Below, one piece after another: positions 531-18,974 of a stretch of DNA of 64,000 nucleotides. A model generated the notes under the pieces. That model saw only the letters and a list, made by a program, of their open reading frames with translations, was not told the DNA's origin and searched no databases. The position numbers were made by a program, and so were the translations under genes. The stretch lies in assembly GCA_028712075.1 (NCBI GenBank), contig JAQTQX010000002.1, forward strand, positions 186,001-250,000, in the 5' to 3' direction. Source of the DNA: Desulfuromonadaceae bacterium. GTDB lineage: Bacteria > Desulfobacterota > Desulfuromonadia > Geobacterales > Pseudopelobacteraceae. Every line of letters starts with the position of its first letter. The stretch's first letter is position 1.

Positions 531-2981
531 CTAGTACCCAAGTATTTTTACTATGGGAGGAAGCAGAATCTCCTGCTCCAACGAAGGAGCGTTGTTCAGG
601 CTTTTTGCCAATGGGCCTGCTGTCGTAGGATCGATAACCACACCTTTCAGCAGGAAGGCCACCATTTGAGTCTGGGCAAGCAACGTATTTGCCGCCGGGC
701 TGTTATCGACCAGGAAGCTGTGCGCTATACTGGCTTGGTTGAACTGAAAATACCCTTCCGAAGGAGAAGTGCCTGCCGTACCCTGAGCCCTCGCAAAATC
801 GGTTTTTGATGTTGGAGCGCCATCAACCACCCCTCCCGTACGAGTGAGCATGAATGGAGCCGGAAGCGTGCCGTCAAGATATTTTAATTGACTAAACCCT
901 GGCGCCACTGCAAGGGCGGCGGTTGTGTTCAGAATTCCGCGTCCACCCAGAGCATTGCCGAAATAGCGGGTATTGTCATTGGGGATGGATGAGTCGCCAA
1001 CCGCCTCCTGGATTACAAGACGCCCTGAGAGACGGGAGGGCAGACCTGATTGCACAGGAGACGTCATGGTTGCCGGATCAACCGGATCGATAACACTCTG
1101 TGTTACCTGGAAGAAATTGTGGTAAGTCGGTGAGTCCTTCACAATACCTGCGGAGGCCGCCAAACCGGCAACTATGGGGGGACCATAGGTGGGGCTATTC
1201 TGTAGCAGGTAGGCGAGGCGGCCGCCGGGAACACTGAGGAAGCCTTTCATGTCGGTGGCTGCCGGGGTCGCGCCATTGCCGGTATTTCCTGCCAGGTAGT
1301 AAGCTCCGACAATCGAGCCGAGGCTGATGCCGACATATTTTGGCTTGACGGTAGTCCGGTTGGGAGCATCCTCTGCCAATCCGGCAAAACCGCCGTAAGC
1401 CAAGGTTATATCAAGACGATTCAGGTTGAATGCAGCCTGCTGCACATTTGAACGTCCGGCAAGCGGTGCGCCAATTGCCATGAAATCCATCCCCCAATAG
1501 GCCTGACTGTGCGCAATCCCAGTGGCGGGATTTATGGCAGCCAGAGCACCGTGAAGGGGAAGATCTATGGCAACCACTGCATAGCCTGCTTCAGTCAGTT
1601 TGCCGGCAACTTCAGTAACCCGTTCCTTCTTACTGTTGATGCCGTGCTGGAAAATAACCAGCGGCCAGCCCCCAGTCGGAGCGGCACCGGTTGGCACGAT
1701 GTACACAAAAGGAACAGTGGTTGTCGTGTGATAATATCCGGTCAAAGCGCCCGTACCGTCCCGGAACGACTGTGTAACACCGGCCGCAGGATTATAGGCT
1801 GGCATTCCGCCTAGCGAGATGCCAGTTAGATCCATGCTGGCAGCGTTGGCTTTTTTCACAACCGGGTCTATCGAAAGCTGGGCGCTGTTGATGGTCCCCT
1901 TAATTACTTTGCTGACAGTCGTCGGTACTGCTGTTGTTGAACCCGCTTCAGTCCAGAAATCGGCAGCCGTAACGGTGGTTGGTGTTCCAATACTGTTTGC
2001 CCAGGTTTTGGCTGATGGTTGTCCAGTTACGGTTGTACCAGCTGCAAATGCCCGCAAGGCGCTTTCAACCGGAACCATATTTGAAGTCACAAGATCCGGT
2101 AGAACAACCGTACCACCAGGGCCAGTAGCAACCTTCGGAACGAATCCCGCTACGGTGGTAATAAAACGCCCCATCAGGGCTATGTCGTCACGGCTTTCAA
2201 TTTTTGTTGCTGCTTTTTGAGTAATCAGGTCATCCATAACTTTGGCATAGCCCGACATTGCGATATTTGAGCCGCTCATTATGTTGCCGCGGGCTATTTC
2301 AAGCTTCGCAACGGATCCGACAAGCGGAAACTTGGACTTAAGAATATCAAAATACTTTGTACTACAGATCGGTTTACCGGTAGCTGCGTCAAGCACCTTG
2401 TTAGTTACGACGTAGAGATACCGGGTTGCCGGGGAAAGGGGGAAGTTCGGGAACAAAAAGAGATCTGTGCCTCCGGGTGTGTACTGATATTTAAACATAC
2501 CGGATACATCAGAAAAGGTGAGAGTGTTGTTTTCGTATGGCGATGGGCTGGGATCGCCAGCAGTCTGAAATACCTTGATGCTTGTGCTTGTTACGGAGGC
2601 TGGATCAACCGGGCTGGAAAATCTGATGTATATCGGCGCATTCACCCCTGATACTGCACCGGAGCCGCCAACTTCATAGTTATTGACATAAGCCAGGGCA
2701 TCAAGCGGAGTCATCGAACTGTTGGCTGATCGGGCAACTTCGCTGCCTGTCAACCCTTTGAGCGGATCTATACCTGTTAGCGGATCTTTTGAAAGAGCTG
2801 TAACCAAAACGTTTGGGAGAGGAACTTCAGACGCTGCCGGATTATCCAGATCTATGTTGAATACCGCCGCGTTGCCGGTGATGTTACTGGGACTGTTTAA
2901 ACCAGACGGATCCGTGCCGGAGCAACCTGTGACCAAAATGAAGCTAAGAAACAATAGAAGTCGTAAAAGACGTGTATTCAT
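531..2981 (-). CDS. VolA-like surface lipoprotein lipase/lysophospholipase
   Basis: An 816-residue lipoprotein lipase. Residues 1-20 form a lipoprotein signal ending in the lipobox LVTGC (Cys20); Ser follows the Cys rather than Asp, which favours the outer membrane. The N-terminal half resembles the bacterial virulence-factor lipase N domain, with an Ig-like segment near 110-210 (PIYIRFSSPVDPAS). The alpha/beta-hydrolase half begins near 435 with the oxyanion motif FQHG; the nucleophile elbow GISLG is at 551-555 (Ser553) and a likely catalytic His lies near the end (SIAHSF). A second GISLG occurs near 387, outside the fold, and is probably not catalytic. The closest recognised type is VolA/Pla-1, a surface lysophospholipase that frees fatty acids for FadL. 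Start ATG follows AGAGAGGT. It lies 85 bp downstream of fadL. Confidence 0.8.
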   Translation of the reverse strand: MNTRLLRLLLFLSFILVTGCSGTDPSGLNSPSNITGNAAVFNIDLDNPAASEVPLPNVLVTALSKDPLTGIDPLKGLTGSEVARSANSSMTPLDALAYVNNYEVGGSGAVSGVNAPIYIRFSSPVDPASVTSTSIKVFQTAGDPSPSPYENNTLTFSDVSGMFKYQYTPGGTDLFLFPNFPLSPATRYLYVVTNKVLDAATGKPICSTKYFDILKSKFPLVGSVAKLEIARGNIMSGSNIAMSGYAKVMDDLITQKAATKIESRDDIALMGRFITTVAGFVPKVATGPGGTVVLPDLVTSNMVPVESALRAFAAGTTVTGQPSAKTWANSIGTPTTVTAADFWTEAGSTTAVPTTVSKVIKGTINSAQLSIDPVVKKANAASMDLTGISLGGMPAYNPAAGVTQSFRDGTGALTGYYHTTTTVPFVYIVPTGAAPTGGWPLVIFQHGINSKKERVTEVAGKLTEAGYAVVAIDLPLHGALAAINPATGIAHSQAYWGMDFMAIGAPLAGRSNVQQAAFNLNRLDITLAYGGFAGLAEDAPNRTTVKPKYVGISLGSIVGAYYLAGNTGNGATPAATDMKGFLSVPGGRLAYLLQNSPTYGPPIVAGLAASAGIVKDSPTYHNFFQVTQSVIDPVDPATMTSPVQSGLPSRLSGRLVIQEAVGDSSIPNDNTRYFGNALGGRGILNTTAALAVAPGFSQLKYLDGTLPAPFMLTRTGGVVDGAPTSKTDFARAQGTAGTSPSEGYFQFNQASIAHSFLVDNSPAANTLLAQTQMVAFLLKGVVIDPTTAGPLAKSLNNAPSLEQEILLPPIVKILGY

Positions 2982-3066: not shown

Positions 3067-4425
3067 TTAAAACTTGACGGTAATTGAACCGCCGAAAAGA
3101 TGCACATCACTCTTGAATGTGCCGTTTTCACCGAGAAGCGTAGTCATATCCTGATTATTGACCGTTCGATCCACAAAGTGAGTCCACATATAGGCAAGAT
3201 CAAGTGAGAAATGTTCGTTGTGAAACCCTTGTCCGATGCTGAAACTGTGACGATCGGCATCGGGAAGTAATGGTCCGAGAGTAGAATCAGGAACAGGGTT
3301 TTGGTCAAACATGTATCCGGCTCTGAGATCAATATTTTTCGTTAGAGCATATTGACTCCCTACTTTGTAGCACCAGACATCTTTCCAGTTTAGAGCTTTT
3401 GGGTTGTCAGGTGGGGCGTTGTTTAAGTTGGCAAACTGAGGGCTGTCAAAATGGAACCCTAACGATTTCATTGAGCTCCAGCCGGTTCGTTCAGCATCAA
3501 ATTCCAGTGTAAGCGCATCGGTCGGTTGCCAGGCAACACCGAGCGCAAGGCTGTCAGGGAGTGTAATCGTGCTTGAGACACCGGAAACGGCACGCATTTG
3601 AGAATACGTCGAAGTAGCACTGGTTGTCATCCCGATTGTTGAAAAGCCGGTGGGAGTAGTAACAAGAATGTTTGCATCACCTTTGATCTTAAGTTTAATC
3701 TCACTTCGGTAGGCAACGCCAAAGGAGATGCTTGGGATCGGTTTCCATTTCAAGCCGACGTTCCAGCCGACATCGGTAGCGGTGCCGTCAAGCCCCAGTG
3801 GTCCTCTCTCATAGGCCGAATTGGGAGTGTCTGGATCTATTGAGTAGGATGTTTTTTGCAGAGTGACTATTGCGTGTGTTACATCAAGACCGGCGGCTAC
3901 GGCAAGATTCATCTCGTCAAAACGGTAGGCAACGGTTGGTTGAACATTGATCGGCTTTACGGCGATATTGGTAATCTGGCTACGAAAAGCGCTGCTATTA
4001 TCCCAGCTTTTTGCCAAAGGGTATATGGCATTTACTGAAAGACCTACTGAAATGGGCATGCCTTCAAAGGAATGGGTTGCATAAAAAGCCGGGGCGATGA
4101 AAATATCATTCTTGGAGTTTTCGCGTACGCTTGTCGTACCAACACCAGTTGGAGCGGTGCCGCTGAGAGGTGCCGTGCCGGTAAATTCGGTAGACGGCAC
4201 ATAAATCGTCGTAGAACCGAGATTGACTTGAGTTCCTTTGAGGAACGCAATACCGGCAGGGTTGTAAAACAGGGCGGAAGGGTCGTCCGCCTGTGCGGTA
4301 AAGGCATTTCCCATAGCCATCGCCTTTGCACCCTGCTCGTTAACTTTTAGTCCTGCCGCTCCTGCCAGTGTAGTCACCCCTGTCATCGTCGCCAGTACAC
4401 ACGCAAGAATTAATTTGTTTCTCAT
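3067..4425 (-). CDS. fadL: Outer-membrane long-chain fatty acid transporter FadL
   Basis: A 452-residue OMPP1/FadL/TodX-family beta-barrel that takes long-chain fatty acids or similar hydrophobic compounds across the outer membrane. The signal peptide is 1-23, with probable cleavage after AGA. The family signature follows: a plug-like start (GLKVNEQGAKAMAMGNAFTA), then FYNPAGI with the conserved NPA. Many amphipathic strands follow, and the protein ends in Phe (SITVKF), the usual outer-membrane insertion signal. AAAGGAG lies 8 bases before the ATG. The stop of a 56-codon ribbon-helix-helix gene lies just upstream, so the two are cotranscribed. Downstream comes the surface lipase. The lipase should release fatty acids outside, FadL imports them, and the divergent operon activates and oxidises them. 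Confidence 0.92.
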   Translation of the reverse strand: MRNKLILACVLATMTGVTTLAGAAGLKVNEQGAKAMAMGNAFTAQADDPSALFYNPAGIAFLKGTQVNLGSTTIYVPSTEFTGTAPLSGTAPTGVGTTSVRENSKNDIFIAPAFYATHSFEGMPISVGLSVNAIYPLAKSWDNSSAFRSQITNIAVKPINVQPTVAYRFDEMNLAVAAGLDVTHAIVTLQKTSYSIDPDTPNSAYERGPLGLDGTATDVGWNVGLKWKPIPSISFGVAYRSEIKLKIKGDANILVTTPTGFSTIGMTTSATSTYSQMRAVSGVSSTITLPDSLALGVAWQPTDALTLEFDAERTGWSSMKSLGFHFDSPQFANLNNAPPDNPKALNWKDVWCYKVGSQYALTKNIDLRAGYMFDQNPVPDSTLGPLLPDADRHSFSIGQGFHNEHFSLDLAYMWTHFVDRTVNNQDMTTLLGENGTFKSDVHLFGGSITVKF

Positions 4426-4438
4426 GTCATAACTCCTT

Positions 4439-4609
4439 TCAGTATGAGTGTTCCGTGTTTCGCTGCAGGTAATTCTTCAGGACATCCCTCATGACTTCAG
4501 ATACGCGTGTACCGCTTTGTTGGGCGCAGCTCTTAATCACCCCCCATTCATGGCTGTTGACTCTCATGGATAGTACATGGTTGCGGAGATTTTTAGTATT
4601 CTGTTTCAT
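4439..4609 (-). CDS. Small ribbon-helix-helix DNA-binding protein
   Basis: A 56-residue protein with the look of an Arc/CopG-type ribbon-helix-helix regulator: a short basic strand (HVLSMRVNS), then two helices separated by a SGTRVSEVM turn. Proteins of this fold bind DNA as dimers through the strand. The ATG at 4609 is preceded by AAGGA about 11 bases upstream; an internal ATG at codon 15 is an alternative. It is the first gene of the fadL-lipase operon and its stop ends 13 bases before the fadL start. The natural inference is a local regulator of the divergent fatty-acid promoters, acting on the inverted repeats at 4673-4690 and 4865-4888. No direct evidence links protein and site. Confidence 0.7.
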   Translation of the reverse strand: MKQNTKNLRNHVLSMRVNSHEWGVIKSCAQQSGTRVSEVMRDVLKNYLQRNTEHSY

Positions 4610-4660
4610 AGCGCTGTTAAATCCTTATCTATGCAATATTTTAAAACGGTATTTTTAATC

Positions 4661-4690
4661 AAGCTATTACACCTTAACGCTTGTGTCAAG
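4661..4690 (-). promoter_or_regulatory. Promoter and operator of the RHH-fadL-lipase operon
   Basis: On the minus strand a perfect -35 TTGACA (4689-4684) is followed after 17 bases by TAGCTT (4666-4661). An inverted repeat CTTGAC-N6-GTTAAG covers 4690-4673 and overlaps the -35. The expected transcript begins near 4653, about 44 bases before the small regulator's start codon. The same -35, spacing, -10 and repeat recur in the divergent promoter at 4865-4897. Confidence 0.65.
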
Positions 4691-4864
4691 AACAAAAGTG
4701 CCCGATGAGTAAAAATGTATTTGCCTCTGTATATACCTTTAATTGCATTGATTTCCCGGAGTTATGTCGATTTTTCGCGTGCTCGTACCGGGGGAGATTC
4801 AATCATTACGTGGTGCCTCATATTTTTTTCAACCATTGGTATAAAGCCAAAATAGAATAAAATT

Positions 4865-4897
4865 ATACTTGACATGAACGTTAAGTATGTATAGCTT
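4865..4897 (+). promoter_or_regulatory. Promoter and operator of the beta-oxidation operon
   Basis: A perfect -35 TTGACA (4869-4874) is followed after 17 bases by TAGCTT (4892-4897). A near-perfect inverted repeat with 9-base arms (ATACTTGAC at 4865-4873, GTTAAGTAT at 4880-4888, one mismatch) covers the -35. The core CTTGACA....CGTTAAG is shared with the divergent fadL promoter. A transcript beginning near 4904 would leave a leader of about 27 bases before the acyl-CoA synthetase start. Confidence 0.65.
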
Positions 4898-4930
4898 TGT
4901 ATGAAAGCAAATTCTGCGGAGGTGTCACCC

Positions 4931-6742
4931 ATGAGTGCCAACACGTATCGTTCTGTGCCAGATATGCTCAGAAGCAACGCGACAGAATTTAAAAACAGGT
5001 TGGCTCTCAAATATCGTAAGCAGGGTGTCTTTGTAACGCTCACCTATGCGGCGTATTACGAACGGGTGCTGATGGTAGCCAGGGGGCTTGCAAAAATGCG
5101 GGTCAAACCGGGCGACCGGATTGCAATTCTCTCGGAAAACCGTGCCGGTTGGGTTATTGCAGATATGGGCATCCTTTGTACCGGCAGCGCCACCGTGCCG
5201 ATTTATCCGACCAATACGCCGGAACAGATCGAGTACATGATTAACCATTCCGGAGCGAGAATCATCTTCGTCTCCGGAAAATTCCAGTACACCAAACTGT
5301 TGAAGGTCCGTGAAGCAATACCGGGACTGGAGCTGGTAGTCTCCTTTGAGCGTTTTCTTGGTGACCCATCCCTGCCGGTGACAACTTTTTACCAGCTTTC
5401 CGAAATAGATTCTCCTATTACTGATGACGAAAAAACCGACATCGAGGCGGGGATCGACCAGATCGCTCCAAATGACATGCTGACGCTTATTTATACGTCA
5501 GGTACCACCGGGGTACCGAAAGGGGTTGTGCTGTCCCACCGTAATATCCTGATCAACACGCAGTACCTGACCGAACAGAGCGGTGCCGTTACCAAGGACG
5601 ATGTCCTGTTGAGCTTCCTCCCGCTCAGCCACATTCTGGAGCGCACCGCCGGTTATTATACAACCATCCGTAACGGGGCCCTGTTGGCATTCGCCGACAG
5701 CATCGAAAAAGTGCCAGAGAATATGTTTGAAATCAGGCCGACTGTCATGGTCAGTGTGCCCCGTCTGTTTGAAAAGATTTTTCACCGGATTTTTGAAAAT
5801 GCCCATCAGATGCCGGCACTTAAAAGATCCCTTTTTCACTGGGGAGTCGATGTCGGCAAGAAATATGTAGAAGCTACCTACATTAAAAAACAGCCGTCAG
5901 CGCTGCTCAATTTCAAATATGCCATTGCCGACCGCCTTATCTTCAGTAAAATCAGGGCAAAGTTCGGTGGTAATATGAAACTGTTCTGCTCTGGCGGTGC
6001 CCCGCTGGACAAGAGTATCAACGAATTTTTCTGGGTTCTCGGTATTCCTATATTTGAGGGGTACGGTCTGACTGAAACGAGCCCGGCGCTTTGTTTTAAC
6101 AGCTTTGAACATATCCGGTTCGGTTCGGTCGGCTTTCCCCTGAAAGAGACCGAATTCAGAATTGCGGGTGATGGCGAAATTCTGGTGAAAGGGCCGCAGG
6201 TGATGTGCGGGTATTACAATGACCCCACCTCAACCACGGAGGCGATTCAGGATGGCTGGTTCAAAACGGGAGATATCGGACATATCGAGGACGGTTATAT
6301 TTTCATCACTGATCGAAAAAAGGAGCTGATTATTACAGCGGGGGGTAAAAACATTGCGCCGCAACCGATTGAGAACGAATTGAAAATGGATAAATATGTC
6401 AGTTCCGCCTTTGTTTACGGAGATCGCAAGCCGTACCTGACCGCCCTGATTGTGCCTAATCTGGAACGGCTGCTGGAATTTGCCAAAGAGAAGCATATCC
6501 ATTATTACGAACTGGATGATCTGGTCATGCACGAACCGGTGCAAAAACTCTTCTCACAGCGGCTTGCCGACATTAACAGTCGCCTTGCGCCTTACGAAAC
6601 CATCAAGAAGTTTGTCCTGCTGGCCCACGATTTTTCCATCGAGGGGGGCGAACTGACACCGACATTGAAGCTGAGGCGTAAAGTTATTTACGAAAAATAC
6701 AAGCACAGAATTGAAGACATGTACACTGATCATAACAATTAA
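4931..6742 (+). CDS. Long-chain acyl-CoA synthetase (AMP-forming)
   Basis: A 603-residue ANL-superfamily adenylate-forming enzyme of the long-chain type (FAA1/FadD15-like). It activates imported fatty acids to acyl-CoA through an acyl-AMP intermediate. The phosphate-binding loop YTSGTTGVPKG is near residues 188-198, followed by GYGLTETSP and the hinge region with GWFKTGDIG and DRKKELIITAGGKN. The ATG at 4931 is chosen because GGAGGTG lies six bases upstream; an in-frame ATG 30 bases earlier has no such site. It is the first gene of the beta-oxidation operon and is read from the promoter at 4865-4897. Its length is normal for the family, and its location should be cytoplasmic or at the inner face of the membrane. 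Confidence 0.9.
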   Translation: MSANTYRSVPDMLRSNATEFKNRLALKYRKQGVFVTLTYAAYYERVLMVARGLAKMRVKPGDRIAILSENRAGWVIADMGILCTGSATVPIYPTNTPEQIEYMINHSGARIIFVSGKFQYTKLLKVREAIPGLELVVSFERFLGDPSLPVTTFYQLSEIDSPITDDEKTDIEAGIDQIAPNDMLTLIYTSGTTGVPKGVVLSHRNILINTQYLTEQSGAVTKDDVLLSFLPLSHILERTAGYYTTIRNGALLAFADSIEKVPENMFEIRPTVMVSVPRLFEKIFHRIFENAHQMPALKRSLFHWGVDVGKKYVEATYIKKQPSALLNFKYAIADRLIFSKIRAKFGGNMKLFCSGGAPLDKSINEFFWVLGIPIFEGYGLTETSPALCFNSFEHIRFGSVGFPLKETEFRIAGDGEILVKGPQVMCGYYNDPTSTTEAIQDGWFKTGDIGHIEDGYIFITDRKKELIITAGGKNIAPQPIENELKMDKYVSSAFVYGDRKPYLTALIVPNLERLLEFAKEKHIHYYELDDLVMHEPVQKLFSQRLADINSRLAPYETIKKFVLLAHDFSIEGGELTPTLKLRRKVIYEKYKHRIEDMYTDHNN

Positions 6743-6775: not shown

Positions 6776-9163
6776 ATGACACAGATCAACAAAGTTGCCG
6801 TTCTGGGGGCCGGAGTGATGGGAGCGACCATTGCCGCTCATCTTGCCAACGCAGGGGTTCAAGTTCTTCTTCTCGATATAGTACCAAGAGAACCTGACAC
6901 CGGAGAAGCAGCAGCAGGCCTGACTCTGCAGGACAGCAGTGTGCGCAACCGCATTGCAGCCGCCGGGCGTGACGGGTTGCTTAAAATGAAACCTGCTCCG
7001 TTTTTTCTACCGGGATACGCCGCCAATATTGACGTCGGAAATTTCGACGATGATATTGCCAGGCTCAGGGAGTGTGACTGGGTTGTTGAAGTCGTTATCG
7101 AAAATATGGCGATCAAGAAGCAGCTCTTCACCGAAAAAGTCGTGCCGAACCTCAAGGAGGGAGCAATTCTCTCTACCAATACCAGTGGTCTGTCGGTCAA
7201 TGACATGGCGGAGTGCCTTCCGGAAGCTGTCAGGAAAAATTTTCTGGTTACGCATTTCTTTAATCCTCCCCGCTATATGCGCCTGCTGGAGATCGTGCCC
7301 TGCAGTGCAACGGATCCGGCAGTAGTCGCCTGCATGGCCGATTTCATCGCCAATCGCCTTGGTAAGGGTATTGTCTACGCCAAAGACACTCCCAATTTTA
7401 TAGCTAATCGCATTGGAGTGTATGCCATCAGCAACTGCATACGCACTATGCTGGAATACGATATGACCGTTGAAGAGGTTGACGCGGTTGCCGGCCCGGC
7501 TACCGCCCGCCCGAAAAGCGCAGCTTTCCGCACCGCTGATCTGGTCGGCATCGATACGCTGCAACATGTTGCCAACAACTCGTATGAGTTGCTGGCCAAT
7601 GACGAGCAGCGCGACATTTTCAAATTTCCGGACTTCGTCAAGGAGATGGTCGCCAAGGGGTTACTGGGGAACAAGAGCAAGCAGGGATTTTTCAAGAAGG
7701 TAAAGGACGAAAGCGGACAACAGTTTTTCTATTACGATTACAAAATCGGCGAATATGCACCTTCACAGCGTCCCAAGTTTGCCTCGATTGAGTCTGCCAA
7801 GTCTATTGATGATCCGGCCAAACGGCTCAAAGCGATTATCACCGGCAGTGACAAGGCCGCCCTCTTTGCCTGGGTCAACTTGCGTGACACGCTGATCTAC
7901 ACATTAAACCGCATCCCGGAGATTGCCGACGATATCGTCAACATCGATAATGCCATGAAGTGGGGTTTTAACTGGGAACTTGGCCCGTTCGAGATGCTTG
8001 ACGCCATCGGCGTCGCCTATTTTGTCGAGCGGGCGGAAAAAGATGGCATAGCGGTTCCTGCGGGACTCAAAGCGATCAAACAGTTCTATACATTTGAAAA
8101 TGGTGTTCATTGTTACTACGATATGCAGGCGGCTGCATGCCGTGAAGTACCACGGAAGGCCGACCAGATAAGTCTTTCGCTTCTCAGGAAAAACAGTGCC
8201 GTGGTGGAAAAGAACAGCGGCGCTTCCGTGATTGATCTGGGCGACGGGGTATTCTGTCTCGAATTCCATACCAAGATGAATGCCATCGGCGGCGAAATTC
8301 TCTCCATGGTTCATAAAGCAATCAAGCGGACCGAAGAAGATGGGGTAGGCCTGGTAATAGCGAATGAAGGGAGCATGTTCTCTGCCGGCGCCAACCTGAT
8401 GTTGCTGGTCATGGCTATTGCCGAAGGAGCATTTGACGAAATCAACATGACGGTCAGAAACTTTCAAAAGGCGATGATGGCAATCAAGTACTCAAAAATC
8501 CCGGTTGTTGCAGCGCCGCATCAGCTGGTTATGGGTGGTGGCTGTGAAACATGCCTCCATGCCGATGCCATTATTCCCCACGCTGAAACCTATATGGGAC
8601 TGGTAGAGATCGGTGTCGGACTGCTTCCGGCCGGCGGCGGCACCAAGGAAATGGCCATCCGTGCCATCAAGCTGGCAGAAGAGTACGAGATCGACGCTAC
8701 TCCGTTCATCTTCAAAAATTTTATGAACATTGCCATGGCCAAGGTCAGTATGTCGGCAGCGGAGTTGATCCCAATGGGCTTCATGAGGCAGGGAGATGCC
8801 ATTGCCATGGATATTGACAAGCGTATCCATGACGCCAAGCTGAAGGCCCTCTCGCTGGCCGCAACCTATCGCCCCGGCCGGCCGTTGACCGATCTGAAAG
8901 CACCCGGTCGCGGGGTGGCCGCCTCCATCAAGTCACAACTCTGGAACATGCAGAAAGGCGGCTTCATCTCGGAATACGATCAGTATCTTGCCACTGCTGT
9001 GGCTGATGTTATTACCGGCGGCGATGTTCCTGCCGGCACGCTGATAACCGAGGAATACCTGCTGGAACTGGAGCGGGAGGCCTTTTTACGGCTCTGCGGA
9101 CAGAAGAAAACGCTGGAACGGATTCAGCACATGCTGAAAAAAGGGAAGCCGCTACGGAATTAG
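6776..9163 (+). CDS. fadN: 3-hydroxyacyl-CoA dehydrogenase / enoyl-CoA hydratase, FadN type
   Basis: A 795-residue two-function beta-oxidation enzyme. The NAD-dependent 3-hydroxyacyl-CoA dehydrogenase comes first: Rossmann motif GAGVMG at 11-16, then NTSGLSVNDMA and THFFNPPRYM. The enoyl-CoA hydratase (crotonase) domain follows from about residue 480 (FSAGANL, VMGGGCE, LLPAGGGTKEM). This order is that of Bacillus FadN, the reverse of FadB/FadJ, in which the hydratase comes first. AGGGAGG lies before the ATG. It is followed by fadA and fadE, the same order as the Bacillus subtilis fadNAE operon. It should hydrate 2-enoyl-CoA and oxidise the 3-hydroxyacyl-CoA. Confidence 0.9.
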   Translation: MTQINKVAVLGAGVMGATIAAHLANAGVQVLLLDIVPREPDTGEAAAGLTLQDSSVRNRIAAAGRDGLLKMKPAPFFLPGYAANIDVGNFDDDIARLRECDWVVEVVIENMAIKKQLFTEKVVPNLKEGAILSTNTSGLSVNDMAECLPEAVRKNFLVTHFFNPPRYMRLLEIVPCSATDPAVVACMADFIANRLGKGIVYAKDTPNFIANRIGVYAISNCIRTMLEYDMTVEEVDAVAGPATARPKSAAFRTADLVGIDTLQHVANNSYELLANDEQRDIFKFPDFVKEMVAKGLLGNKSKQGFFKKVKDESGQQFFYYDYKIGEYAPSQRPKFASIESAKSIDDPAKRLKAIITGSDKAALFAWVNLRDTLIYTLNRIPEIADDIVNIDNAMKWGFNWELGPFEMLDAIGVAYFVERAEKDGIAVPAGLKAIKQFYTFENGVHCYYDMQAAACREVPRKADQISLSLLRKNSAVVEKNSGASVIDLGDGVFCLEFHTKMNAIGGEILSMVHKAIKRTEEDGVGLVIANEGSMFSAGANLMLLVMAIAEGAFDEINMTVRNFQKAMMAIKYSKIPVVAAPHQLVMGGGCETCLHADAIIPHAETYMGLVEIGVGLLPAGGGTKEMAIRAIKLAEEYEIDATPFIFKNFMNIAMAKVSMSAAELIPMGFMRQGDAIAMDIDKRIHDAKLKALSLAATYRPGRPLTDLKAPGRGVAASIKSQLWNMQKGGFISEYDQYLATAVADVITGGDVPAGTLITEEYLLELEREAFLRLCGQKKTLERIQHMLKKGKPLRN

Positions 9164-9218
9164 CTGAGCAGGCACCACCATTCAATAAGTGGGACTTACC
9201 ATCAACGGAGGACTACAC

Positions 9219-10391
9219 ATGAGAAATGCATATATTATGGCTGCCTATCGCACCCCCGCATGCCGGGCAAAAAAAGGTAAATTGAAAGATGTCCGCCCGG
9301 ATGACCTGGCGGCGGTAGCCATCAAGGGACTGTTGGAAAGAACCGGCATCGATCCGCATGATGTTGAGGATATCATTATCGGCTGCGCTTTCCCGGAAGG
9401 GGAGCAGGGGATGAACTTTGCGCGTGTTGCCGCAATGAAGGCCGGAGTACCGATAGAAGTGCCGGCCCAGACGGTCAACCGTTTCTGCTCCTCCGGTCTG
9501 CAGACCATCGCCACGGCAGCGGAACGAATCATGGCCGGTTTTGCCGATTGCATTATTGCCGGCGGCGCTGAGAGTATGAGCATGATTCCGATGGGTGGCA
9601 GTAAATACAGCGCCAACCCTTCTCTGGTGGCTACCTGGCCGGAATCTTTTGCCTCAATGGGGATCACTGCGGAACTGGTTGCAGATAAATACGGCATTAC
9701 CCGCGAGGAGCAGGACGCTTTTTCCGCAGCCAGCCACGCCAAAGCAGCAGCAGCGATTGCAGCAGGGAAATTCAGGGACGAAATCATCCCGGTGGAAGTG
9801 GAAAACTGTGCTCTCGTTAACGGGAAGATGAAGCGGAGTAAAGGAGTGGTTGATACTGATGACGGCGTGAGGAGCGATACCACCTCTGCCGGTCTGGCAA
9901 AACTGAAACCGGCCTTTAAGGCTAACGGCACCGTTACAGCCGGAAACTCATCACAGATGACCGATGGTGCCGCCGCAGTGCTGGTGGTCTCCGAAGAGTA
10001 CCTGAAAAAGAGCGGTAAAAAAGCCCTCGCCCGTTTCGTCGCATTTTCCGTCAAAGGGGTACCACCGGAACTGATGGGCATCGGCCCGGTGGCGGCAATT
10101 CCGGCAGCACTGAAGATGGCCGGTCTTACGCTTGACGAAATCGGCCTGATCGAACTGAATGAGGCTTTTGCCGCACAGTCACTTGCCTGCGTCAAAGACC
10201 TCGGCATTGATCCGGCACGAGTCAATGTGAACGGCGGAGCGATTGCCCTTGGTCACCCGCTCGGTTGCACCGGCACCAAGCTGACCGCCAGCATCCTGCA
10301 GGAAATGCAGCGCACAGACACCCGTTACGGCATGGTATCCATGTGTATCGGCGGCGGAATGGGTGCAGCAGGGATTTTTGAAAAGATGTAA
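9219..10391 (+). CDS. fadA: Acetyl-CoA acyltransferase (3-ketoacyl-CoA thiolase)
   Basis: A 390-residue thiolase that cleaves 3-ketoacyl-CoA with CoA, giving acetyl-CoA and a shortened acyl-CoA. The acyl-binding nucleophile is Cys90 in NRFCSSGLQT; the other catalytic residues are His346 in GGAIALGHPLG and Cys376 in CIGGGMGAAG. The start is the ATG at 9219 because ACGGAGG lies seven bases upstream; an in-frame GTG 30 bases earlier is less likely. Length matches the family. It follows fadN closely and precedes fadE, from which a 44-base hairpin repeat separates it. Confidence 0.93.
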   Translation: MRNAYIMAAYRTPACRAKKGKLKDVRPDDLAAVAIKGLLERTGIDPHDVEDIIIGCAFPEGEQGMNFARVAAMKAGVPIEVPAQTVNRFCSSGLQTIATAAERIMAGFADCIIAGGAESMSMIPMGGSKYSANPSLVATWPESFASMGITAELVADKYGITREEQDAFSAASHAKAAAAIAAGKFRDEIIPVEVENCALVNGKMKRSKGVVDTDDGVRSDTTSAGLAKLKPAFKANGTVTAGNSSQMTDGAAAVLVVSEEYLKKSGKKALARFVAFSVKGVPPELMGIGPVAAIPAALKMAGLTLDEIGLIELNEAFAAQSLACVKDLGIDPARVNVNGGAIALGHPLGCTGTKLTASILQEMQRTDTRYGMVSMCIGGGMGAAGIFEKM

Positions 10392-10496: not shown

Positions 10497-12275
10497 ATGG
10501 CTGCAAGACTATTTAAAGGCGCAGAATACCTGATCACAGAGGCTGACAAGAACGACGTATTCACCCCGGAGGATTTCTCGGATGAGCAGCGCCAGATCGG
10601 TGATACCACTGAACAGTTTGTGCTCAATGAAGTTGTTCCGCATCGTGAGCAAATCGAACATCACGACCTGCCGCTGACGGTGGAGCTGATGAAAAAGTGC
10701 GGGGAACTGGGGCTGCTGATGATCGACGCCCCGGAAGAGTACGGTGGACTTGAGCTTGACAAGGCAACAAGCATGCTGGCCGCTGAAAAGCTCTCCCAGG
10801 CCGGCTCGTTCTCGGTAACCTATTCAGCACATACCGGCATCGGTACGCTGCCGTTGGTGTATTACGGTACCGGGGAACAGAAAGAGAAGTATCTCGGCAA
10901 GATAATTTCCGGTGAATGGGTGGCCGCATACTGCCTGACCGAACCGGGATCAGGGAGTGATGCGCTCGGTGCTTCGGCAACCGCGACTCTTTCGGCAGAC
11001 GGTAAACACTATCTTCTGAACGGCACCAAGCAGTTCATCACCAATGGCGGTATTGCCAACCTCTTTACAATTTTTGCCAAAATCGACAAGCAGCATTTTA
11101 CCGGCTTTCTCGTTGAGCGCACCACCGAAGGGCTGAGCATCGGCAGCGAAGAAAACAAGATGGGGGTGCGTGGTTCGTCCACGACTCAGGTGATACTGGA
11201 GGATGCCAAAGTCCCGGTTGAAAACCTGTTGGGCGACATCGGCAAAGGGCATAAAATTGCCTTCAACGTCCTCAATGTCGGGCGCTTCAAGCTGGGTGCC
11301 GCCGTTACGGGCGCCGCAAAAACCGCGCTGGCCACCGGAATTAAATATGCCAACGAGCGCAAGGCTTTTGGCGTAACGATCGGCACCTTCGGCGCCATAC
11401 AGGAAAAAATTGCCGACATGAATGCCGCTCTGTTTGCCTCGGAATCGCTCGTCTATCGCCTCGCCGGACTCATTGATGACCGGTTGGCTACGCTGCCGAA
11501 AGAAACTGAGAACTATTACGAAGTGTATCAGCAGGGGATCGAGGAGTATTCGGTCGAGTGCGCCATTGCCAAGGTCTTCTGCAGTGAGGTCCTGGCCGAC
11601 GTTGTTGATTCGGTCGTCCAGATTCATGGAGGCTATGGATTCATTCAGGAATACGCAGCCGAGGGATACTACCGCGACGAACGCATCAACCGCATCTGGG
11701 AGGGGACCAATGAGATCAACCGCCTGTTGATTGCGGGCATCATCCTCCGCCGCGCCATGAAAGGGGAAATCCCGTTGCAGAAAGAGGCGATGAAAGCCTT
11801 TGAATCATTGATGTCGCCATCTTTTGAAGAGCTTGATGATTCGATCCCGTTTGCTGCGGAAAAAGCGCTGATTGCCAACCTGAAGCAGGCGTTTCTGGTT
11901 CTGGCCGGCAGCGGCGTACAGAAATTCATGGATACCATCAAGGATGAGCAGGAAATTTTGATGGCGGTTGCCGATCTGGCAATCAACATTTTCGCTATCG
12001 AAAGCGCCGTGCTGCGTGCCGAAAAGATTCTGCCGAAGCTGAGCGACAGCAAAAAGGCGTCCGTCACTGCCGCAGTCAAGGTATTCACCTTCAATGGTTC
12101 TGAAAAGGCGGCTTCGGCTGCGCGCAGAACAGCCTACTACATTGAAGAGGGAGATACCCTGACCATGCTCCTGGCCGGTATCCGCAGATTCACCAAATAT
12201 GACGCGACCGGCCTGCTCACTGCGAAACGGCAGCTGGCAGCGGCGGCACTTGAAACAGAGAAGTATATTTTTTGA
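10497..12275 (+). CDS. fadE: Acyl-CoA dehydrogenase, FadE type
   Basis: A 592-residue FAD-dependent acyl-CoA dehydrogenase that makes the first double bond of each beta-oxidation cycle. After the N-terminal helical domain come the FAD/substrate motifs AAYCLTEPGSGSDA and GVRGSSTTQ. The catalytic-base region RDERINRIWEGTNEI places Glu402 at the usual active-site position. About 170 extra C-terminal residues form a second helical region, as in Bacillus FadE and mitochondrial VLCAD, which suits long-chain substrates. GAGGTGACATC precedes the ATG. Its stop overlaps the start of the following MBL-fold gene by four bases. Electrons would pass to an electron-transfer flavoprotein, not seen in this window. 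Confidence 0.92.
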   Translation: MAARLFKGAEYLITEADKNDVFTPEDFSDEQRQIGDTTEQFVLNEVVPHREQIEHHDLPLTVELMKKCGELGLLMIDAPEEYGGLELDKATSMLAAEKLSQAGSFSVTYSAHTGIGTLPLVYYGTGEQKEKYLGKIISGEWVAAYCLTEPGSGSDALGASATATLSADGKHYLLNGTKQFITNGGIANLFTIFAKIDKQHFTGFLVERTTEGLSIGSEENKMGVRGSSTTQVILEDAKVPVENLLGDIGKGHKIAFNVLNVGRFKLGAAVTGAAKTALATGIKYANERKAFGVTIGTFGAIQEKIADMNAALFASESLVYRLAGLIDDRLATLPKETENYYEVYQQGIEEYSVECAIAKVFCSEVLADVVDSVVQIHGGYGFIQEYAAEGYYRDERINRIWEGTNEINRLLIAGIILRRAMKGEIPLQKEAMKAFESLMSPSFEELDDSIPFAAEKALIANLKQAFLVLAGSGVQKFMDTIKDEQEILMAVADLAINIFAIESAVLRAEKILPKLSDSKKASVTAAVKVFTFNGSEKAASAARRTAYYIEEGDTLTMLLAGIRRFTKYDATGLLTAKRQLAAAALETEKYIF

Positions 12276-18518: not shown

Positions 18519-18917
18519 CTACTGTATCAGTTTGAATTGGTCAACAATCCTGTGCCGATACGCCGCAATCTCCTTTTCCAGGGATTGCAGCGTTGACACC
18601 TTCTGTTTAATGCTGAGCAGGTGGGTGTCAAGAAGCTCGATAAGGCGCGGCATGATCTTTTCAGGGACCTTCTGCTCCTGATCAAACAGTTGAGCCAACT
18701 CTTTCATCTCTTCCAGCGAAAGCCCCAGTTCCTTGACCTTCAGAACAAACTTGAAACGCTTGACGTCCGCCTTCTCATAATACCTGACGCGTCCATCCGT
18801 CCGTTTGGGAGGTTCCACGAGCCCGAGTTTTTCATACAGCCGGATGGTTCTGGTCGTTATCCCCAGCATCTCGGCCAGGTCACTGATCTGCATATGTTCT
18901 TCATTGCTCAGTCGCAT
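18519..18917 (-). CDS. MerR-family transcriptional regulator
   Basis: A 132-residue regulator with an N-terminal winged helix-turn-helix (MQISDLAEMLGITTRTIRLYEKLGL, residues 9-33, then RYYEKADVKR) and a C-terminal dimerisation coiled coil. It has no metal-binding Cys, so it is not a metal sensor. MerR proteins bind inverted repeats between -35 and -10. Relatives of this length include LiuR-like regulators of fatty-acid and branched-chain amino-acid breakdown. Because it sits one gene past the beta-oxidation operon, it is a second candidate, besides the small RHH protein, for the fad operator (inference). GGGGTGAAGT precedes the ATG. Confidence 0.85.
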   Translation of the reverse strand: MRLSNEEHMQISDLAEMLGITTRTIRLYEKLGLVEPPKRTDGRVRYYEKADVKRFKFVLKVKELGLSLEEMKELAQLFDQEQKVPEKIMPRLIELLDTHLLSIKQKVSTLQSLEKEIAAYRHRIVDQFKLIQ

Positions 18918-18942: not shown

Positions 18943-18974
18943 TATATATAGGGCGACCCCAGCTTTTATGTCAA
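18943..18974 (-). promoter_or_regulatory. Promoter of the MerR gene
   Basis: On the minus strand TTGACA (18974-18969) is followed by an alternating TATATATA (18950-18943). The spacer is 18 or 20 bases depending on the -10 register, in the long range typical of MerR-controlled promoters, so autoregulation is possible. Confidence 0.5.

Follow-up and report, generated by a model that had tools for sequence, protein, structure and literature searches.

The window analysed here, i.e., the whole stretch of 64,000 nucleotides, contains a fad cluster in which two divergent promoters lead on one side into an uptake operon, comprising a small RHH-like ORF followed by genes for a FadL-type outer-membrane transporter and a lipase-like protein, and on the other into an operon coding for a long-chain acyl-CoA ligase and the β-oxidation enzymes (FadN/FadB-, FadA-, and FadE-like; Table 1). 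The small ORF shows no match in Pfam or NCBIfam. The ligase start is probably better placed at the ATG behind GGAGGTG than at 4901, since the latter lies only three bases past the -10 box. The same cluster codes, 14 kb away, for a MerR-family protein, with matches to PF13411 (69.7 bits; cut-off 21.6) and, likewise over the cut-off, to PF00376 and PF09278.

Table 1. Coordinates of genes and regulatory features of the fad cluster
Feature	Position	Strand	Basis or remark
Lipase-like protein	531..2981	minus	weak match to VolA/Pla-1 phospholipase (TIGR03502, 128 bits, below cut-off 384)
fadL, OmpP1/FadL/TodX outer-membrane transporter	3067..4425	minus	PF03349, 7e-63
Small RHH-like ORF, 56 aa, first ORF of the fadL operon	4439..4609	minus	RHH is the label given by the earlier note
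Promoter TTGACA-17-TAGCTT towards fadL	4661..4689	minus	-35 TTGACA 4689-4684, spacer 17, -10 TAGCTT 4666-4661
Operator CTTGACACAAGCGTTAAG	4690-4673 (4673..4690)	minus	exact match; over the -35 of the RHH-fadL-lipase promoter
Operator CTTGACATGAACGTTAAG	4868-4885	plus	exact match; over the -35 of the ligase-fadN-A-E promoter
Promoter TTGACA-17-TAGCTT towards the acyl-CoA ligase operon	4869..4897	plus	-35 4869-4874, spacer 17, -10 TAGCTT 4892-4897
Long-chain acyl-CoA ligase (AMP-binding)	4931..6742	plus	PF00501, 7.5e-78; GGAGGTG before ATG 4931; start moved from 4901
fadN/fadB-like 3-hydroxyacyl-CoA dehydrogenase/enoyl-CoA hydratase	6776..9163	plus	PF02737, PF00725, PF00378
fadA-like thiolase	9189..10391	plus	PF00108, PF02803
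fadE-like acyl-CoA dehydrogenase	10497..12275	plus	NF058590, 852 bits (cut-off 600)
MerR-family protein, proposed regulator	18519..18917	minus	PF13411 and PF09278 over cut-off; orthologues, linkage, own site
Degenerate operator copy ATTGACGTTGGGGTGAAG just before the MerR start codon	18919..18936	minus	proposed autoregulation
Putative MerR-gene promoter TTGACA-18-TATATA	18945..18974	minus	similar boxes upstream of most orthologues shown

An earlier note on this DNA had placed CTTGACA-N4-CGTTAAG over the -35 box of both divergent promoters, each of the form TTGACA-17-TAGCTT, and this is correct to the base; its description of the element as a near-perfect inverted repeat holds in the window for five of six base pairs, with all six being symmetric in many relatives (CTTGAC-N6-GTCAAG). 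The two 30-base promoters are identical at 22 of 30 positions. Apart from these two, no sequence in the window matches the pattern exactly, the pattern itself having been derived from the promoter pair on which it was tested, and with up to three mismatches there are seven matches against a mean of 4.7 in shuffled sequences, so that only the exact pair stands out. A less biased test, namely the best inverted 37-base match within 4610-4931, gave 25 identities as opposed to 19-24 in 20 resampled sequences, and a sigma-70 scan of the window listed neither of the two promoters. The window by itself provides modest support beyond chance for a shared element; the case for an operator rests on conservation across relatives, where the signal is clear.

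Conservation and anatomy of the operator

The first scan took in 26 fadL loci (assigned to Geobacteraceae, Desulfuromonadaceae, Geobacter, Geomonas, Deltaproteobacteria, or Proteobacteria) and accepted as a site any sequence with at most one mismatch to CTTGAC-N6-GTYAAG. The fadL-side palindrome is present in all 26 and a second, ligase-side palindrome in all 24 with enough contig, those of L013 and L017 ending before it. As the sources of the fadL loci overlap, only de-duplicated counts carry weight: with further genomes of the family added, the site is found in 34 of 35 distinct fadL upstream regions (the sole one without it being L139 of genome G041) and in all 31 distinct acyl-CoA-ligase upstream regions, thereby answering in the affirmative the earlier note's call to look for the repeat upstream of fad genes in related genomes. 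It is also found in 11/11 distinct upstream regions of a gene for an ETF-linked membrane Fe-S oxidoreductase.

Every unique row from these three promoter classes (34 fadL, 24 ligase, and 11 oxidoreductase) shows TTGACA followed by 17 bases and then TA. Bases 13, 14, 16, and 17 of the 18-mer (GT-AA, situated within the spacer) are invariant in all of them, with position 10 of the site being nearly free, as are several bases between the operator and the -10 box. Neither the -35 box nor sigma-70 needs GT-AA in the spacer, and its invariance amid free neighbors indicates that the site is more than a promoter. Thus, the spacer bases are indeed conserved beyond what sigma-factor use requires, as had been claimed, and the action of one regulator on both fad promoters is strongly supported. 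The -10 box begins with TAG in 27 of the 34 fadL and 16 of the 24 ligase rows and in none of the 11 oxidoreductase rows, where it is TAT/TAC-like; hence, the odd TAGCTT highlighted by the same note is present at both window promoters and amounts to a preference rather than a rule across relatives, and we rejected it as a special signature.

On a genomic scale, the loose palindrome CTTGAC-N6-GTYAAG is not diagnostic by itself, with a reversed control yielding as many matches in many genomes (e.g., in the window's own genome, five against three). The fuller consensus TTGACATNNRCGTYAA recovers 81 exact sites, distributed over 38 of 76 genomes of the family, as against five for the reversed control, and the genes that these sites accompany are fadL, ligase, Fe-S oxidoreductase, and MerR genes, along with some matches inside ORFs; the latter (e.g., in L086, L095, and L104) were not counted as targets.

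Further targets and the linked MerR-family protein

The window's own genome contains an exact site (C17:14360) preceding a membrane Fe-S oxidoreductase gene that is followed by EtfB and EtfA genes, and two one-mismatch sites, one (C17:10278) preceding a thiolase-dehydrogenase-hydratase-acyl-CoA-dehydrogenase operon and the other (C46:8486) a hydratase gene beside leucine-degradation genes, which owe their names to an identity of 60-80% with annotated Azospirillum proteins. The remaining palindrome matches of this genome looked like chance or coding sequence; that at C41:12079 is inside an ORF and was not counted. The oxidoreductase combines CCG and 4Fe-4S domains, belongs to a family that we assume passes electrons from ETF to quinone, and has as its best solved relative 9ojn ('Iron-sulfur-binding reductase'), which we take to be EtfD. 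Mycobacterial EtfD is a described example of such an oxidoreductase (PMC13083937).

The MerR protein, already suggested as a candidate by the earlier note, gains in standing from co-occurrence, adjacency, and synteny, and is probably the regulator of the shared operator. Its orthologs (≥67% identity) occur in 28 of the 76 family genomes, as does fadL, with 25 genomes having both (Fisher p=1e-13, uncorrected for relatedness); in 11 of these 25 the two genes are on one contig, 12-20 kb apart. The orthologs form one clade (100/100, the bootstrap being not fully settled). Moreover, 65 of the 81 exact TTGACATNNRCGTYAA sites are in the 28 genomes with a close ortholog and 16 in the other 48, and five of the 81 precede a MerR gene by no more than about 300 bases, the gene belonging to the window clade in G009, G024, and G063 and to a second type, found on contig C46, in G002 and G023. 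There are exceptions in both directions: G042, G009, and G063 have the MerR gene without fadL, and G041, G043, and G045 have fadL, in a different gene context, without a close MerR. The site is degraded in G041 and good in G043 and G045. In all three we found only other kinds of MerR, with no LiuR-like one in G043 and G045; the latter two genomes constitute the main evidence against the assignment.

The MerR genes also carry what may be an operator of their own. A left half-site, TT[GAT]AC, precedes the start codon at a constant distance in 28/28 distinct ortholog upstream regions. The right half, six bases from it, is less regular and overlaps the ribosome-binding site, and the whole passes the strict site test in only six of the 28, for which reasons autoregulation is no more than suggested. 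Outside the family, the start-codon site is near consensus in L222 (7528; ATTGACATGGAGGTTAAG) and L215 (7335; ATTGACATTGAGGTTAAG), which strengthens this reading.

A class-wide search of 277 genomes recovered matches to the MerR protein at 1e-30 or better in 88, of which 59 are outside the family; among these, 11 show 58-84% identity and the others 43-54%. We examined the neighborhoods of 20 of the 59, comprising all 11 close and nine distant versions, picked by protein and not by site. The MerR and Fe-S oxidoreductase genes are divergent in 11 of these 20 loci (L213, L214, L218-L222, L226, L227, L229, and L230; with an intervening gene or ORF in L220-L222), and the palindrome is just before the oxidoreductase gene in nine of the 11 arrangements, L226 and L229 being without it. 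In L215 it occurs between the MerR and EtfB genes, and the eight remaining loci show no convincing site, the MerR gene itself being absent from the ORF listing of L223 and L228. The site is thus present in 10 of the 20 loci, i.e., in 8/11 close and, with a changed center, 2/9 distant ones, and there are 14 strict sites (counting both strands, and perfect palindromes twice) as against none in 20 resampled sets.

Alternative regulators

The possibility that no regulator is involved, with two similar sigma-70 promoters being kept only for promoter function, would agree with the modest promoter match seen in the window alone; however, the GT-AA of the spacer is invariant in all three promoter classes and the same right half-site occurs with different -10 boxes, on account of which we rejected pure promoter conservation as hardly credible. 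The small RHH-like protein, whose binding the earlier note had proposed to test along with that of the MerR protein, might instead bind the repeat and repress both promoters. Its ORF is directly behind the fadL-side site, and all 15 distinct regions upstream of it have the site, although this follows from its place in the operon. Against this, its relatives are found in 19 of the 76 family genomes, with no match in eight of the 25 that have both fadL and the MerR gene; the ORF is interrupted by stops in G046, G013, and G037 and split in G011, all of which keep the sites; and L020-L022, L024-L026, L033, and L034 are among the loci with the site only about 80-115 bases from fadL, leaving no room for it. 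Being absent or broken in relatives that retain the sites, the RHH-like protein was rejected as the regulator on its distribution and decay, and we consider its involvement very improbable. Alternatively, an unlinked regulator of another family, such as TetR, might bind the repeat, with the MerR gene merely traveling with the fad cluster. The sites of G043 and G045, in genomes without a LiuR-like MerR, would fit this, and TetR genes are found in 75 of the 76 genomes; but sites directly before MerR genes or between the MerR and oxidoreductase genes recur in several genera and families, and among the TetR matches listed none was seen by eye to share a contig with a TTGACATNNRCGTYAA site, save where the genome consists of one or two contigs. 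No linkage to the sites was seen among the matches listed, and we consider an unlinked regulator of this kind unlikely.

The remaining contender is the other LiuR-like MerR protein, that of contig C46, which is 36% identical to the window MerR, is encoded beside the leucine-degradation genes, and might regulate the fad sites either alone or with the window MerR. Genes of this type are preceded, at a distance of about 300 bases, by a matching site in L084 and L186, and L190 has a weaker one; the one-mismatch site at C46:8486 precedes a hydratase gene, and the two MerR types adjoin in G020, G021, G022, and G028. Nevertheless, only two of 10 distinct upstream regions of C46-type genes have the site, and 12 genomes with this type and without a close window-type MerR show no fadL match, eight of them having no exact-consensus site either; its control of the fad sites accordingly strikes us as improbable. 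Since some genomes have matching sites close to C46-type genes, the two proteins may cross-bind or the assignment may be swapped. A further MerR gene, on contig C48, was rejected for its other context (its neighbors presumably being pheT/ihf-like genes) and the want of a convincing site.

In G002 and G023 (L084 1500-1517; L098 1500-1517; L186 2020-2037), the palindrome is between the C46-type MerR gene and an IclR-like gene (with an IclR HTH in L084), followed by a gene for a small membrane protein, pointing to a second regulon, under a paralogous MerR and with an almost identical operator. In G020, G021, G022, and G028, a copy of the window MerR that is of a second kind, distinct from the C46 type, is 110-350 bases from the C46-type gene, with ACGTYAACGTYA-like palindromes upstream in L072, L073, and L075.

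Proposed mechanism and relation to known regulators

Returning to the MerR protein of the window, we propose, with a probability of about 0.8, that in Geobacteraceae and relatives the repeat serves as operator for a regulon of fatty-acid catabolism, on which a dimer of this protein acts as an acyl-CoA-released repressor. Bound to CTTGAC-N6-GTYAAG, the dimer would cover the -35 box as well as the first half of the spacer, which has a normal length of 17 bases, and would thus keep RNA polymerase off. In this manner, it would repress uptake (RHH ORF-fadL-lipase) together with activation and β-oxidation (ligase-fadN-A-E), and, elsewhere in the genome, the ETF-linked membrane Fe-S oxidoreductase and the thiolase/dehydrogenase/hydratase/acyl-CoA-dehydrogenase operon; by binding the degenerate copy at its own start codon, it would also limit its own level. 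A fatty-acid-derived ligand, going by the pathway most likely an acyl-CoA, would free the operator. Of the earlier proposal that one regulator represses uptake and degradation together, the shared regulator is strongly supported, and the repression is what the geometry would suggest.

As for precedents, the LiuR box and the window operator may be alike in motif. LiuR is described as a MerR-family repressor of branched-chain amino-acid degradation in Proteobacteria (PMC3223726), and in Rhodospirillum rubrum the LiuR gene, too, has the box upstream (PMC7238569). By this description the window protein would work like LiuR, both being MerR-family proteins with a regulon of acyl-CoA catabolism to repress. 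This is not to say that the window protein is LiuR, from which it differs in that its predicted targets concern long-chain fatty-acid uptake and β-oxidation in Desulfuromonadia. With respect to a box at both the targets and the own gene, we find the palindrome at the targets and a degenerate copy at the own gene. The main targets are fatty-acid genes, the single one-mismatch site at C46:8486 being the one near leucine-degradation genes. Four megaplasmid regions with leucine-degradation operons contained no MerR gene matching that of the window and no TTNAC-N6-GTNAA palindrome, and the MerR matches on these megaplasmids, being CadR-like or unnamed, were discarded as a LiuR reference.

The window MerR shares its domains with CueR, CadR, and MerR, and its best matches among solved structures are CueR and CadR; it scores below the cut-off of the NCBIfam CadR and CueR models. 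Cysteine is absent in 26 of its 28 orthologs (L062 and L149 have one each), which argues against metal-thiolate sensing. The promoters of the activating regulators CueR, CadR, and MerR have spacers of 19-20 bases and a site center 7-8 bases after the -35 box (PMC5045206). The window operator departs from this geometry in having a spacer of 17 bases and a center 2-3 bases after the -35 box, which suggests plain repression by occlusion of RNA polymerase. The known regulators of fatty-acid degradation, FadR (GntR), PsrA (TetR), and FadP (TetR; PMC5343134), have the same role and come from other protein families, the linked regulator in the window being of the MerR family; it is by protein family, not by operator, that we set them apart.

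On a broader level, we consider it fairly likely that anaerobic fatty-acid oxidation across Desulfuromonadia has as its master switch a MerR repressor, probably acyl-CoA-responsive, which brings uptake, activation, β-oxidation, and the ETF-to-quinone exit under one operator. This would constitute a further non-orthologous replacement of FadR/PsrA/FadP, and one in which the MerR protein simply occludes a promoter of normal spacing instead of distorting the DNA. In oxidizing organic matter, Geobacteraceae pass the electrons to metals, electrodes, or partner cells. Our search of the open literature yielded no description of fatty-acid oxidation in Geobacter being regulated by a MerR protein, nor any account of how Geobacteraceae turn fatty-acid use on and off. 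If true, the proposal would tie lipid uptake to the membrane exit for β-oxidation electrons and be a clear example of MerR action at promoters with ordinary 17-base spacers.

A few variations on the above themes were also observed. The ligase side of L012 (3549-3593; also L120) has two tandem operators, 27 bases apart, in place of one. In several relatives, internal stops or splits mark the decay of the RHH-like ORF before fadL, with the promoter and operator being kept. G002 has four copies of a repeated but unrelated palindrome, CTTGACAGCGGGGTCAAG, and G039 has at least two; it may be a mobile or intergenic repeat. In all, G039 has 13 matches per strand to the loose palindrome pattern.
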